A stretch of 64,000 bases of DNA from Taibaiella sp. KBW10 (lineage in GTDB: Bacteria > Bacteroidota > Bacteroidia > Chitinophagales > Chitinophagaceae): assembly GCF_003852495.1 (NCBI RefSeq), contig NZ_QAJI01000003.1:487776-551775 (forward strand), in the 5' to 3' direction. Positions 5,778-27,295 of the stretch are shown piece by piece. Within the stretch, counting starts at the first letter, position 1, and the number at the start of each line of letters is the position of its first letter. The notes beneath the pieces are model-generated. The model did no database searches. It was not told the origin of the DNA and was given only the letters and a program-made list of their open reading frames with translations. The translations under genes were made by a program, and so were the position numbers.

Positions 5778-8222
5778 TTACTCTTCTTCCTCGTCTACAA
5801 CTTTTCCATCGTCTTTACCATTCACTTTTCCGACCCCAATCGAGATTTTCCCCGAAGCATCGGAATGCGCATTGAGGTTCAGTACCAGTCCTTCGCCTTT
5901 TCTTTTTTTCAATCCCCTTTCTACCCGGTCTTTATCAATCTGCGGATTGCGTAAAGGTACCCGGAAGTCAATATTAGTTGCCGCTCCGGGCACCAATCCA
6001 TAAACACCCTGGAAAGAAAGGTTCAGGGCACTGGTCTCCAATTTAGTGGGTGGAATAATAATATTACCATTCTTCAAGCTGATATCACCTGCAAATTTAT
6101 CGATCTCGATATTATCAAGCCCTCTGTTCTTAAACCATTTCTGCACTTTGGCAAATAACTCAAAGTTACGCAGGGCGGCATTATTGAGGTTGTATTTCAT
6201 ACCGCCGTTGAGGCGATTGGTCATCAAAGCACCTTTATCGGTTACATTGCCGCTAAGATTCCCATTGATAGAAATATTGCCCGCTACATTTTTATCAGTC
6301 AGGTTTTTAAACCCAAAGTTATTCAACGCGTAGAACAGCTGATTAACTTTTACATTGGCCACGTTAAAATTAAGGTTAAAGGGATTATTCTGGCTTTGCT
6401 GATCAATATTAGCCTTGAGGTTTATAGTTCCCTGTGCATGGTTCAGGCTCAGGTTATGAATCGCTAAACCAGCAGTCGTAAAGGACATATTGGAGACGAC
6501 GTTCGTCGCCACGAATTTTTTATACAGCGCTTTATTAATGCGCATGTCAATAGCAATATCACTATTGGTCAGAAAATCATCGAGCCGGTCTGCCGCAAAT
6601 TGTTTTCCTTTTTTACTGGTACTTCGTTTCTGTACGAAATAGGTCATGAAGGCTCCTAAATCAATATTATTGCTTTGTAGATGCAGATCCATCGATGCTT
6701 TTCCGGGAATTTCCACAAAGGTTTTCAGAAAGTCATGAGACACCCCATTTATATTGATATCACTGTTCTGCGCAAAGATCTGTAGCTTATTCAACAACAG
6801 GTCTGGCCCGTTAAAAGCCAATTGTGCTGTTCCGTTATGAAACTTCAGGTTTCGTTCATTATAAATAAAATCAAAATTTTGAATCGTGACGTTTCCGTAT
6901 ATCTCATCAGCGATCAGGGAGTTGGCAAAAAGGTTGCCATTATATTTCAAATCGTAGCTACAAGTCCCTTTTGTAAAATTAAACTGTTCACCGAAGGTGT
7001 TGTTTAATACCGTCGCATCAAACTGTGCTTTTAAATAGGCGACGACATAGGGATGTATAAAATTCACGATACTTATATCACGCGCGCATACCGGAAGGCC
7101 ATTGTATAAAGCAGATAGGCTGTCAATCACAATTACGGAATTACTATCATGCTTTGGCTGATCCGGCTCCAATTGATTCACAAATTTCCCTTTAAAATAA
7201 ACCTCTGTAAAAGTAGAACCCAGAAGGCTTACGGTATTATGCTCCGTTGCAAAATCAATCCCGATATAGGGATTGGTGCCCCGCTCGAGCATATCGCCCT
7301 TAATGAGCGCGGCCACACTCAGGTTTTTATTGAAATCGAACTTGGAAAGTTTATTGAATATATTTTCTGACAGCCATTTTACGGCTACGTTATAGGTAAT
7401 TTTTTTTCCAGTCAGGTATATTTCAAAGGGTAAGGCCTTGGGTTTACCCATATCAAATTGGGCCTTTAATTTCAGCTTTTCATTGTCAATATCCAGGTCA
7501 TTTTCCAGTACATTACCTATTTTCGATTTGGTATTATAATCAAAATTGATGGCACCTTTTATGGCTGCATTTTTAAGGAAAGAACCTTTAGACAATTTAA
7601 AGCCTAACTGCCCCACCAGGGCATTTACATCAGCCCTTACTTTGAGTATACTGTCGACGGTGTATATCTTAGCAGAAACGTTATTAAAACGCACATTGAA
7701 GCGTTTATTCATAGGCTTGTTATCGATCAGAAACGCAACGCCGTCTAGTTCGATATGTTCAATATCCACTTTCTTTTTTTTCTGCTCGGGGTTCTTTTGC
7801 TTTGATTTGAGCAAGTAATTATTGGAATATCCGTTTTCATCAATAAATAGGTGCAACAGGCCTTCTTCCAGAATTATTTTAGAGATTTTCGGTTTGCCGA
7901 AAATAACAGAAAAGATATTGATCCTTACATAAGCATGCTTAAGATCCAATAACTTCCGGTGGTGTTGCTCATAGAGACTGTCTACCAGAGACAGGCCATC
8001 TAAACGTATGGCCATGTTGGGGAATGTTTTAAAAACATCAGGCCGTATATCTTCTATGGTGAGTTTACCTTCTATTTTGTCGCCAATAGCTTGTTCCAGT
8101 TTGGTGATCAGCTCTTGCTTATGGGCACTGACATACCAGTACAGGACACCCCATAATATCAGCAATAGTGCGATGAGGGTACCGAATATATAGAGGATTC
8201 TTTTTAACCATTTTTTACGCAT
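5778..8222 (-). CDS. AsmA-like envelope protein
   Basis: An 814-residue protein anchored by one N-terminal membrane span (about 11-31) after a basic MRKKWLKR start. The rest is periplasmic and strand-rich, as in AsmA/TamB-like repeating beta-groove proteins. The AsmA-type C-terminal region lies at about residues 640-760, and the C-terminus ends in an acidic tail. Family members bridge inner and outer membrane and are implicated in phospholipid transport; that role here is inferred. It follows the DUF4175 gene by 49 bp and precedes tsaD by 23 bp. Confidence 0.78.
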   Translation of the reverse strand: MRKKWLKRILYIFGTLIALLLILWGVLYWYVSAHKQELITKLEQAIGDKIEGKLTIEDIRPDVFKTFPNMAIRLDGLSLVDSLYEQHHRKLLDLKHAYVRINIFSVIFGKPKISKIILEEGLLHLFIDENGYSNNYLLKSKQKNPEQKKKKVDIEHIELDGVAFLIDNKPMNKRFNVRFNNVSAKIYTVDSILKVRADVNALVGQLGFKLSKGSFLKNAAIKGAINFDYNTKSKIGNVLENDLDIDNEKLKLKAQFDMGKPKALPFEIYLTGKKITYNVAVKWLSENIFNKLSKFDFNKNLSVAALIKGDMLERGTNPYIGIDFATEHNTVSLLGSTFTEVYFKGKFVNQLEPDQPKHDSNSVIVIDSLSALYNGLPVCARDISIVNFIHPYVVAYLKAQFDATVLNNTFGEQFNFTKGTCSYDLKYNGNLFANSLIADEIYGNVTIQNFDFIYNERNLKFHNGTAQLAFNGPDLLLNKLQIFAQNSDININGVSHDFLKTFVEIPGKASMDLHLQSNNIDLGAFMTYFVQKRSTSKKGKQFAADRLDDFLTNSDIAIDMRINKALYKKFVATNVVSNMSFTTAGLAIHNLSLNHAQGTINLKANIDQQSQNNPFNLNFNVANVKVNQLFYALNNFGFKNLTDKNVAGNISINGNLSGNVTDKGALMTNRLNGGMKYNLNNAALRNFELFAKVQKWFKNRGLDNIEIDKFAGDISLKNGNIIIPPTKLETSALNLSFQGVYGLVPGAATNIDFRVPLRNPQIDKDRVERGLKKRKGEGLVLNLNAHSDASGKISIGVGKVNGKDDGKVVDEEEE

Positions 8223-8271
8223 AGGTATTGTGTATAGTGGCGGTTTGTGTGCTATAAATATACTGCTTATT

Positions 8272-11200
8272 TTATTTACCCTGCACTTTTCTGAGGTATT
8301 CTTCTGCCATTTTTTGGTAAAAAGGTTTCAGTACCGGCACGGTAGTCCGGTATTGCTCAAACAGTTGTTGCTGCCGTTTCAGGTAGTCAGAAAGCTCTGC
8401 AGGCATTGGTCTTGGCGCATCTTTACCTGCTTCGGCACTACGTTTATTATCTTCTTCCTGCTCCTGAATGGCCTTTTCGGCTTCCAGCATACGGGTCAGG
8501 ATTTCTTTATTGCGCTGAATGAGTTCATCGATGTTTCTACGGAAGACCAGATCGGTTTCTTGTTTATCCAATGCCGCCTGGATGGCCCTGATTTCATTGG
8601 TAACCTTGCCACCCATCCCTTTACTGTTCAGGACATCGATCAGCTCCTGCATCTGTTTCCGCAGCATGGCCTGTTGCTGTGCCAGGCGAGCGATCTGCTC
8701 TGCGGTGCCCTGGCTACCGCCATTTTGCTGCCCGTTCTGCCCTTGGCCTTGCCCATTTTGACCCTGACCGCTTTGTCCCTGACCAGATTGCCCCTGGCCT
8801 TGCTGGCCTCCGGGTTGCTGCCCCTGTTTCATTTGCTGCATGCCCTGCCCCATTTGTTGCTGACCCGTAATAATGTCTTTCATCATTCCGGAACCACTTC
8901 CCTGACCTTGGCCCTGGCCTTTTCCTTTTTTCGGTTTGCTCTGTCCGCCACTGCCACTCGCGCCACCTTGTTGTGATTGCATCAAATTACTGAGCAGCTC
9001 ATTGAGCAAGAGGGCAAGGTTATTGGCCGCCGTCATGGCATACTGCTGACGGGGCAATATTTCGCCGATATTTCTTTGTTCAAAAGCATCGAGGGTACGC
9101 GCAATATTCTGATCCAGGTCAGATGTTTCTTTGTTGACGGTAGCTGCTATTTTAAAGATCCGCTTGCTTAAGGTATACAAGCTATCCTTGATCATCTTGG
9201 TGTTATTCTTTAATCGGTTCTGTTCTTTGGTCAACAGCAAATAAGATGGGCTATTAATGCTGGTTGTACGCACCAGTTTCATCAGGTTTTCCTGATCAAA
9301 GGAGAAACGAATAAGATTGGTCAGTAGTTGACGGGTCGCTTTTATATCGATATCCAATTGCTCCATATCCATACCGCCTGCCATATCCATCAGGCTTTTG
9401 CTCATTTCTGCCAATTTATTTTTGGCATTCTGCTGCGATTGCTTGGCCTTACTCTTATCGTTTTGCTGCAATTGCTGGCTGCTCTTATCCATTTCTTCAC
9501 CAGCCTCTTTGCCCTGCTCTTGTGCTTTATCCAGCTTCTGCGGTTGCTCTAATTGTTCATTTTGTTTGGTAATCTCTTTCAACTCGTTTTGTAAAGCCTT
9601 ATCCAGGGCATCTTTAATTTTTTCCTGTTCTTTCTTCAAGGCATCATTGGCTTTTTCCCCGGCTTCGGTTTCTTTCTGCAAGGCTCCTTCTCGCTTAGAT
9701 AACTCATCCAGTTTCTGCGCCAGGGCTTCCATATTCATCTGCATTTCCAGCTTTTTCATCAGCTCTTGCATACGTTCCATATCCATCTTGAACAGTTTAT
9801 TATTCTGCTCCATTTGCTGGAATTGATTAAGGGCATCGCGCTGGTCTTTCTTCTGCAGTAATTCCTGCAACTTTTTAATCTGTTCTTCCAGCTGTTTGTC
9901 TTTCAGGTTATCAATCTGTTCTTTAATAGATGCTTGCTTTTCCTTTATGTCTTCGCTGAAATTTTTGGCTTCACTTTGTTTCTGCTGTTCTTCAAATCGT
10001 TTCTTCAGGTTTTCCAGATTTGTTTTCAACTGCAGATTTTTATCCAGTACCGATTGCATTTTTTGGGTACGCTCCCAACTGGATTCACCCGATTCCAGCA
10101 TTTCTTTCTGCATATTCTGCAATTCCTCTTTCAACTGTTCCGATTGTGCCGCACTGCTACTCATACTGGCATTCATCTTCTCTGCATTTTCGGCCATTGA
10201 CTTATCCAGCTGTGTCAGGTTCGGCGCTTTCCAGGACATCACGGTGCTCTTACTACTCTTACTGCCGTTCACGCAATCATTATCCCAGGCTTCTACAAAG
10301 TAATTCACCTGGTATCCGGGTGCCAGCTTTAAGGTGCCGATATCGAAATAATGGGAGAAGGCAACAACTTGCCCTCCACTCTTCAGAGGAACTGATTTTG
10401 TACTCAGAATTTTATTTTCGGCATTAAGGATCTGGTAGACAAAAAGTGTCTGCCGCACTTCATAATCATCGCCGGCGGTACCGGTAATAAGGATTTGCTG
10501 TGCCAGTGTGGTATCTTTATTCACATTGATACTTACTTGCGGGTACTGATCTTCTATGGTTTGCACCTGGTATTGTAAGGTATCTACCCTGCCCTGCTGT
10601 TTATTTTTAAGAATCAGAAGATAGGGCATTGCCGACATAAACCGTATGGCACTGCTAAAGCGCTGCCCGTTTTGAGCAAGTAATTGGTTTACATTTCCGG
10701 CAATCACTTGTATTTCATCCGTGTGTTTGGTCTCCAGCTGCCATGCCAAGGTGGTACCAACCGGAACACTGACATCCGATAAGCCTTGTAAGGTTTCGCT
10801 TTTCTTACCGGTATAGGCAGGGTAATTCAGGGTCATGCGCATCGACTGTATTTCGGGTTTATGAAACACTTTGAGCTGATAGGCCTCTGAGTAGTAATCT
10901 GCCGCTGTAAGCCGGAAAGTTATATCCTGCGTCACTTTCGGGAAGGTATAGGTAAATTTGTTTTTGCCACTAGCCTGCATTTCTACCTGCTCACTCCCTA
11001 AAACGACAAACAATCTTTCGGGCAATTTGTCGCCCGCTACCGCCGCGATCAGGGTAAAGGCCTGCCCTTCTATTACATTCAGGTTTTTATTGATAAGCTT
11101 GAAGGTAAAAGGAGCGGGTTTGGCAAAGAAAACGGAGGGTTGTGATAAACGATAGCCCCCTTCTGTAAAGATCTTAGGTGCGATTAAAAAAACCCCTAAA

Positions 11201-25060: not shown

Positions 25061-25699
25061 TTACGCAACAGTCTTCTTTCTGTTCTTAAAGAACCCAATG
25101 ATAATAGGCAATACCGAAATCAGGATGATACCTAAAACCACTTTTTCAAAATTATCTTTTATAATAGGGATATTACCCAGAAAATACCCTAACAAGGAAA
25201 TACCCACTACCCAAAGCACACCGCCAATAACATTATAGGCAAGAAAAGTCACATACCTCATTTTCCCAATCCCCGCTACAAAAGGGGCAAAAGTGCGTAC
25301 TATAGGCACAAAACGGGCAATAATAATGGTTTGCGGCCCGTGTTTTTCATAAAAAGCATGTGTTTTATTAATATAGTCTTGTTTTACCAATTGTCGGCCA
25401 AACAGGCGTAAACGAACAAATTTATCGCCCAGATATTTTCCGATCAGGTAATTACAGGCATCGCCCAGAATGGCTGCGACGAGCATTAAACCAATACTGG
25501 TATAAATATCAAGAGAACCCTGAGCGGCAAACATCCCAACGGCAAACAATAAAGAGTCTCCAGGCAGGAAAGGCATGATCACAAGTCCTGTTTCTACAAA
25601 AATAATCAAAAACAAAATCAGGTAAATCCATTGATTGTAATCTCTGATCAGGGTAATTAAATGCTGATCTATATGCAAAATAAAATCTATCAAACCCAT
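25061..25699 (-). CDS. DedA family membrane protein
   Basis: A 212-residue DedA/VTT-domain protein. Family members flip or recycle polyprenyl phosphate and phospholipids and maintain proton motive force. The hallmark sequence is intact: VFVETGLVIMPFLPGDSLLF-type segment near 34-53, GDACNYLIGKYLG near 80-92, and FARFVPIVRTFAPFVAG near 126-142, with about five membrane spans. The promoter TATTTTTG is at 25724-25731, back to back with the rhodanese promoter. Confidence 0.88.
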   Translation of the reverse strand: MGLIDFILHIDQHLITLIRDYNQWIYLILFLIIFVETGLVIMPFLPGDSLLFAVGMFAAQGSLDIYTSIGLMLVAAILGDACNYLIGKYLGDKFVRLRLFGRQLVKQDYINKTHAFYEKHGPQTIIIARFVPIVRTFAPFVAGIGKMRYVTFLAYNVIGGVLWVVGISLLGYFLGNIPIIKDNFEKVVLGIILISVLPIIIGFFKNRKKTVA

Positions 25700-25731: not shown

Positions 25732-25791
25732 GTTTTTTATTTCGTTTTAACAGTCGAAAGAAGTGATGAAATTATATGCGCTTAAAAAAAG

Positions 25792-25799
25792 TATCTTTG
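25792..25799 (+). promoter_or_regulatory. -7 element deciding the rhodanese start
   Basis: TATCTTTG, a perfect TAnnTTTG. It lies inside the longer open frame beginning at 25763, so the true start is the ATG at 25838. Confidence 0.6.
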
Positions 25800-25837: not shown

Positions 25838-26482
25838 ATGAAAGCGTTAAGTATTGCTGATTTTGAACAATTAAAAACCGAAGACACTTATATTATAGAT
25901 ACCCGTCCGGCCAGTACATTTACCCTGGGCTTCATTCCGGGATCTGTTAATATCGGTACGGAAGGCAAATGGGAAGAATGGATTCAGACACTTATCAAAA
26001 AGGATGCAAGCATCCTGCTGGTTACGGAAAAAGGCGCGGAAAAGAAAACCGCAGCAGCGCTGGAGACTTTGGGTTATACCGATATCAAAGGCTATCTGAA
26101 AGGCGGCTATAATCACTGGCAAGCCGAAGGCAAACGTATTGACATGATTATTGACGTGACTGCCGATGAGCTGGCACTGGATATTCCTTTTGACCCGAAA
26201 ATAGCGGTGATCGATGTACGTACGGATGAGGAGTACCAAAGTGCACACCTCTTTCAGGCAGATAATTTCCCCTTAGCCGGTCTGGTCGATCCTTTTCAGA
26301 TCGCTTTGCTGGATGATGAAGCCAATATGTATGTTTATTGTGGCGGTGGCTACCGGAGCGTGATTGCCTGTTCTCTGATGAAAAGAGAGGGTTTTCATAA
26401 TGTTCGTAACATTTTAGGTGGCTTTAATGTGATCAAAGAAACACCAAACCTGAAGGTAGAAGTACCGAAAAAGAAAATATAA
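25838..26482 (+). CDS. Tandem rhodanese, CstB-like without dioxygenase domain
   Basis: A 214-residue protein with two rhodanese domains. The first (about 1-100) has DTRPASTFTLGFIPGS at 21-36 and a loop LVTEKGAE at 61-68, in which the catalytic Cys is replaced by Thr63. The second (about 105-205) has a normal loop CGGGYRS with Cys168. An inactive-then-active pair with these motifs is what I know from the C-terminal half of persulfide dioxygenase-rhodanese fusions (CstB/BlsB type), but no metallo-beta-lactamase domain is present. It probably transfers sulfane sulfur in the cytoplasm. It lies 24 bp upstream of scpA. Confidence 0.82.
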   Translation: MKALSIADFEQLKTEDTYIIDTRPASTFTLGFIPGSVNIGTEGKWEEWIQTLIKKDASILLVTEKGAEKKTAAALETLGYTDIKGYLKGGYNHWQAEGKRIDMIIDVTADELALDIPFDPKIAVIDVRTDEEYQSAHLFQADNFPLAGLVDPFQIALLDDEANMYVYCGGGYRSVIACSLMKREGFHNVRNILGGFNVIKETPNLKVEVPKKKI

Positions 26483-26506: not shown

Positions 26507-27295
26507 ATGGCTAACGCGGATGCTTACTTTATAAAATTACCTCAGTTCGAAGGTCCTTTTGACTTGTTGTTGTTTTTCATCGAACGCGATGAGCTGGATA
26601 TCTATAATATCCCGATTAATAACCTGACTAAAGACTTTCTGGCGTATATCCATAATATGGAAAGCCTCAATATTGAGATGGCCAGTGAGTTTATCCTGTT
26701 CATCTCAACTTTGATGCGCATCAAAGCAAAAATGCTCTTGCCGCGAAGAGAGCTTGATGCCACCGGAAACGAGATTGACCCGCGCCAGGAGTTGGTAGAC
26801 AAGCTGCTGGAATATAAGCGCTTTAAAGAAGCTTCGGAGCAGATGGCCGCAATGGAGGCAGAACGCCTGCTCTTACAAAAACGCGGTAATATCCGGAAAG
26901 AACTGGATGCCTTGGGCCAGCAATATGCTGAGGGTACAGAAATACAAACGGTAACGCTGTATAAGCTGGTGAATACCTTTGAGCGGGTAATGAAGAAATT
27001 TCAGGAACGCCATAACAAACCTCAACACGTTATCGTCAAGTATAACTATTCCATGGAAGGGCAAAGAACCTATCTTACGGAGTATCTCTTAAACAGCGAA
27101 AAATCCTCTTTTGAAGAATTGTTTGCCCAAATGAACGATCGCATTCAAGCCATCTTTACCTTCCTGGCCTTGCTGGAAATGGTACAACAGAAAATGATCA
27201 ACTTACTTGTGGGCGAAGGCCGTAATAACTTCATTTTTGAGCGTAATGATGAAGTGCCCCCTGTTATAATTATCCCGGAAGGGCCCGAAATGTAA
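26507..27295 (+). CDS. scpA: Segregation and condensation protein A
   Basis: The kleisin subunit of the SMC-ScpAB condensin. It has 262 residues with the N-terminal kleisin signature FEGPFDLLLFFIERDELDIY at 14-33, LMRIKAKMLLP near 67-77, a central acidic/coiled-coil linker, and a C-terminal winged-helix (FLALLEMVQQKMINL). scpB and smc are not in this window. It directly follows the rhodanese gene and may share its promoter. Confidence 0.92.
   Translation: MANADAYFIKLPQFEGPFDLLLFFIERDELDIYNIPINNLTKDFLAYIHNMESLNIEMASEFILFISTLMRIKAKMLLPRRELDATGNEIDPRQELVDKLLEYKRFKEASEQMAAMEAERLLLQKRGNIRKELDALGQQYAEGTEIQTVTLYKLVNTFERVMKKFQERHNKPQHVIVKYNYSMEGQRTYLTEYLLNSEKSSFEELFAQMNDRIQAIFTFLALLEMVQQKMINLLVGEGRNNFIFERNDEVPPVIIIPEGPEM

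Follow-up and report, generated by a model that had tools for sequence, protein, structure and literature searches.

CstB-type proteins, among them S. aureus CstB and the proteins of the structures 3r2u and 3tp9, combine an N-terminal persulfide dioxygenase of the metallo-beta-lactamase (MBL) type with two rhodanese domains, the first of which (RHD) is inactive, and the catalytic cysteine is carried by the second one only. Pairs of an inactive and an active rhodanese domain are also found in the two-domain thiosulfate sulfurtransferases (TST/MST, SseA). In other enzymes, such as Blh (DUF442-ETHE1) and the PDO-rhodanese fusion 5ve3, a persulfide dioxygenase is joined to a transferase of another type or to a single rhodanese; when the transferase and the dioxygenase of Blh are separated from each other, they couple in trans in vitro (PMC5823870). 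Here we describe a gene of Taibaiella sp. KBW10 that encodes the tandem rhodanese half of a CstB-type protein and no dioxygenase.

The gene is located at 25838-26482 on the plus strand of the window, i.e. the whole stretch of 64,000 nucleotides that was analysed, and is read from an ATG at 25838 to a stop codon at 26482, giving a protein of 214 aa. Pfam assigns two Rhodanese stretches to it (95.9 bits, cut-off 22.2) and no other family. In the first domain (D1, ~residues 1-100) Thr63 occupies the column of the catalytic cysteine in the alignment, and in the second one (D2, ~101-208) the CGGGYRS loop, the catalytic cysteine loop of the rhodanese fold (PF00581), begins at Cys168. Hence, what the original prediction had read from the letters, namely an inactive first rhodanese, an active second one and the lack of an MBL domain, was confirmed. 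An N-terminal MBL dioxygenase domain with its metal ligands is absent from the protein itself, and no MBL relative was found in the ORFs neighbouring the window gene or, in two sister species, at a distance of up to ~5 kb from it. A longer ORF from a GTG at 25763 is unlikely to be real, because a conserved -7-like element, TATCTTTG (25792-25799, plus strand), falls within it. This putative Bacteroidota -7 promoter element lies ~38 nt before the ATG, and each of the five species of the genus carries it in the form TA(A/T)CTTTG; since 8-mers of this type occur across the window at chance frequency, the evidence is the conservation of the element, and a sigma-70 scan gave no match beyond chance. 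The gene therefore likely has its own promoter, as had been proposed, although the support comes from comparison between the species and not from the 8-mer as such.

The similarity to CstB-type proteins extends over both domains. In a phmmer search, the tandem aligned collinearly over its full extent with the C-terminal halves of the MBL-rhodanese proteins 3tp9 and 3r2u. In the AlphaFold2 model of the 214-aa protein (pLDDT 92, pTM 0.89), the order and the relative placement of the inactive and the active rhodanese are those of 3tp9, an MBL-rhodanese-rhodanese structure and the best fold match (Z 26.9, 201 residues, 1.8 A); the next-best match (Z 17.6) covered one domain. The classical tandem rhodaneses, despite the shared inactive-active pair, superimposed on the whole tandem only at 11-15 A. 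In the comparison with single-domain rhodaneses of the GlpE/PspE type, the scores were far under the NCBIfam cut-offs. The inactive first domain is the norm in CstB-type fusions and no peculiarity of the window gene. The protein probably acts like the transferase half of CstB, yet, lacking the dioxygenase that defines a CstB, it is not one.

The origin of the gene was followed in a survey of 149 family genomes, in which the best match to the tandem was nearly always situated within an ORF of ~470-500 aa (class 1), a PDO-rhodanese fusion whose N-terminal MBL domain has the HxHxD, HTPGH and GDT motifs. Such fusions (e.g. L023/L025) are ~50% identical to the window protein over the tandem and differ from it in their length of ~470 aa and in these MBL motifs. 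In the tandem-region trees, the five species of the window's genus are united in a single clade (100/100 and 100/99), which is nested in class 1 beside the fused proteins of G001, G103 and G101 (99/96, 98/89) and, together with these fused neighbours, inside an 18-row clade at 100/99. In trees of the separate domains, D1 grouped with its counterparts from CstB-type fusions and D2 with those from class-1 fusions (97/99), and neither domain with the single-domain rhodaneses of the genome; the match to the C-terminal half of CstB-type proteins, on which the original prediction had been built, is thus borne out by common descent as well as by alignment and fold, and the grouping with ordinary single-domain rhodaneses that would have spoken against it was not observed. 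Since the gene is nested inside a clade of ~470-aa persulfide dioxygenase-rhodanese proteins, it has lost the dioxygenase. The simplest history would place this loss in the ancestor of the window's genus. The reverse course, in which a stand-alone tandem was ancestral and became the source of the fusions, is close to untenable: fused proteins surround the genus in the trees at branches with starred support, the same domain order recurs in fusions throughout the phylum and in Firmicutes proteins of solved structure, and no evidence for an ancestral stand-alone tandem was found in the present trees and comparisons. A candidate remnant of the MBL end upstream of the tandem in G149 was rejected, as it had no coherent reading frame. 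A literature search of partial coverage found no account of MBL-less CstB relatives.

MBL-less class-1 tandems also occur in nine other genomes (G035, G046, G029, G125, G037, G009, G145, G062 and G023), in every case at a tsaB-arsR locus, which in the relatives G052, G128 and G110 holds a full fusion. The same loss of the dioxygenase appears to have taken place more than once in the family, with the genera g35 and g10 each combining a species that has a standalone form and one that has a fusion, but the losses cannot be counted with certainty: the free trees call for several among the class-1 short forms, and a single origin of the class-1 standalones alone is not rejected (AU test, p 0.32). 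The rejection of a single origin that includes L080 (AU, p 9e-91) was set aside, because L080 (G330 C1:1481446-1482861, minus strand) is a class-2 gene of full length that a single internal TAA interrupts; the interruption leaves a tandem ORF of 246 aa, and its reading as an independent truncation was rejected. Throughout the family, the gene between tsaB and the class-1 fusion or short form encodes a regulator of the ArsR type (L143 5885-6223; tsaB-arsR loci L058-L065). This neighbour was considered as a persulfide sensor; unlike the sensors BigR and SqrR, however, five of the seven copies read have no cysteine, and the remaining two have one.

In the short tandems L059, L062, L065, L079 and L110 of other genera, the catalytic cysteine is replaced by Ser or Gly, as might be seen in a decaying, functionless remnant of a lost fusion. 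For the window gene such a fate is very improbable: its genus, unlike several of the other short forms, has kept the cysteine, the ORF, the active loop and the -7 element are retained in 5/5 species, and dN/dS is low (~0.03 for the closest pair, G127-G032), which indicates purifying selection.

The two domains did not fare equally after the loss. When positions conserved in at least 95% of 45 class-1 fusions were considered, the genus kept 60% of the cells in D1 and 95% in D2. Many D1 residues that are invariant in the fusions of the family are gone, with 11 of 29 such positions kept in the five species, whereas 28 of 30 fusion-invariant D2 positions, plus Cys168, are kept in all five. In each of the 14 short forms D2 is better kept than D1, and in most class-2 fusions the relation is reversed (typically 0.86 in D1 and 0.73-0.80 in D2); as the most distant fusions (3tp9, 3r2u, L089 and L090) also keep D2 better than D1, this contrast is valid only among near relatives. 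Within that range, the pattern suggests that, in the fusions, the dioxygenase imposes constraints on D1. One may go further and suppose that the RHD of CstB-type enzymes is conserved through docking to, or communication with, the dioxygenase, that it relaxes once the dioxygenase is lost, and that the repeated losses mark the RHD-dioxygenase interface, a reading to which we give slightly less than even credence. On this reading, the relaxed positions would be the G-R-F-A-E-W-A-G stretch (~residues 43-50), R74, R77 and V78, and the active rhodanese would stay intact.

The neighbourhood of the gene consists of dedA, scpA and a gene for a CNNM/CBS-domain protein. Upstream, a divergent gene for a DedA/VTT-domain membrane protein (25061-25699, minus strand) is conserved in this place in 4/5 species of the genus. 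Downstream, scpA (26507-27295, plus strand) follows after 24 bp and is possibly co-transcribed here. The original prediction had remarked on scpA as an unexpected partner, and the pairing is indeed stable, the short form being near scpA in 5/5 available species of the genus, with a gap of ~25 bp in G150. This spacing and linkage might be taken to mean that the protein is a functional partner of ScpA/condensin, but we regard that as extremely unlikely. In G127 and G032 the two genes are ~530 bp apart with an unrelated ORF of 166 aa between them, the eight relatives examined have scpA without a tandem rhodanese beside it, and the standalone forms of other genera are located at tsaB-arsR. As the pairing is stable in the genus and absent in the relatives examined, it marks a location and shows nothing about function; a functional tie was rejected by this comparison, and the linkage is positional. 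The ORF in the gap (L069 5961-6458 in G127) is membrane-like and of no clear family.

The genome of the window also contains one copy of a complete CstB-like fusion of 470 aa (L012 1462-2874), which lies on a different contig than the window gene. This class-2 PDO-rhodanese fusion belongs to the same domain family as the window protein, is full length, has an active loop CAGGYRS and is ~35% identical to it over the tandem, but falls in a separate, older clade. The recognisable CstB-type MBL domain of the genome is within this protein; the other MBL proteins that were read, judged by eye, belong by motif to other subfamilies, and on this basis a free ETHE1-type dioxygenase was rejected. The separate dioxygenase that the original prediction had envisaged does exist, although as a part of a second fusion and not as a free enzyme. 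The class-2 fusion is present in 5/5 species of the genus and co-occurs with the short form: of the sampled family genomes, 12 of 12 that carry a short form contain it, as compared with 59 of 121 that carry a class-1 fusion (p 0.0004 by genome; 8/8 genera, p ~0.006 by genus, both statistics ignoring phylogeny). Among the Pyr_redox_2 proteins, none was recognised as a sulfide:quinone reductase. A TPMT-family methyltransferase gene (L071 8564-9199, G000 C1; 6e-25) begins 3 bp after the class-2 gene (7148-8560), and TPMT homologues follow the class-2 fusion in 4/4 sister species; the product possibly methylates thiols or sulfide.

From these results, a hypothesis regarding the function may be put forward. 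We consider it fairly probable that the protein is a free cytosolic sulfurtransferase, derived from a class-1 fusion of the order dioxygenase, inactive RHD, active rhodanese, that serves the persulfide/thiosulfate balance, possibly in trans with the class-2 fusion. The gene lost its dioxygenase part in the ancestor of the genus and now stands between dedA and scpA. Its descent, the loss of the domain, the retained active site and the co-occurrence are computational results, whereas activity, substrate and the partnership in trans are inferred. Cys168 would take a sulfane sulfur from thiosulfate or from a (thiol) persulfide, forming a persulfide, and would hand this sulfur to a thiol or to sulfite; the most likely role would be the balance of low-molecular-weight persulfides and thiosulfate. 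The RHD would still support the active domain structurally, released from the constraints imposed by the dioxygenase. Persulfide oxidation to sulfite or thiosulfate by the 214-aa protein alone is not expected, since the dioxygenase domain is absent. Coupling in trans to a dioxygenase is plausible, because the separated Blh domains couple in vitro (PMC5823870), and the full-length class-2 fusion may be the partner; however, that fusion carries its own active rhodanese, and therefore a partner in trans is not obviously needed. The separate contigs of the two genes and the lack of a recognised sulfide:quinone reductase as a source of persulfide also count against this model. Retention of the active loop without a dioxygenase, the altered D1 and a position outside any sulfide-related neighbourhood would also suit a dedicated sulfur carrier that supplies a specific acceptor (e.g. 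tRNA thiolation, cofactor or Fe-S assembly) and is no longer involved in persulfide oxidation. We consider such a specialisation unlikely: no acceptor gene is linked, and D2 is almost the same as in the fusions, which suggests that the old substrate has been retained.

The short forms represent a natural experiment in which a multidomain sulfide-detoxifying enzyme has been taken apart: in at least one genus, and probably in several, what was a fused dioxygenase-transferase is now a free transferase. When the short and the fused forms are compared, certain residues of the catalytically dead rhodanese stand out that may be important solely in the presence of an attached dioxygenase. In annotation, many of the short forms would pass for ordinary rhodaneses; their origin suggests a sulfane-sulfur substrate.
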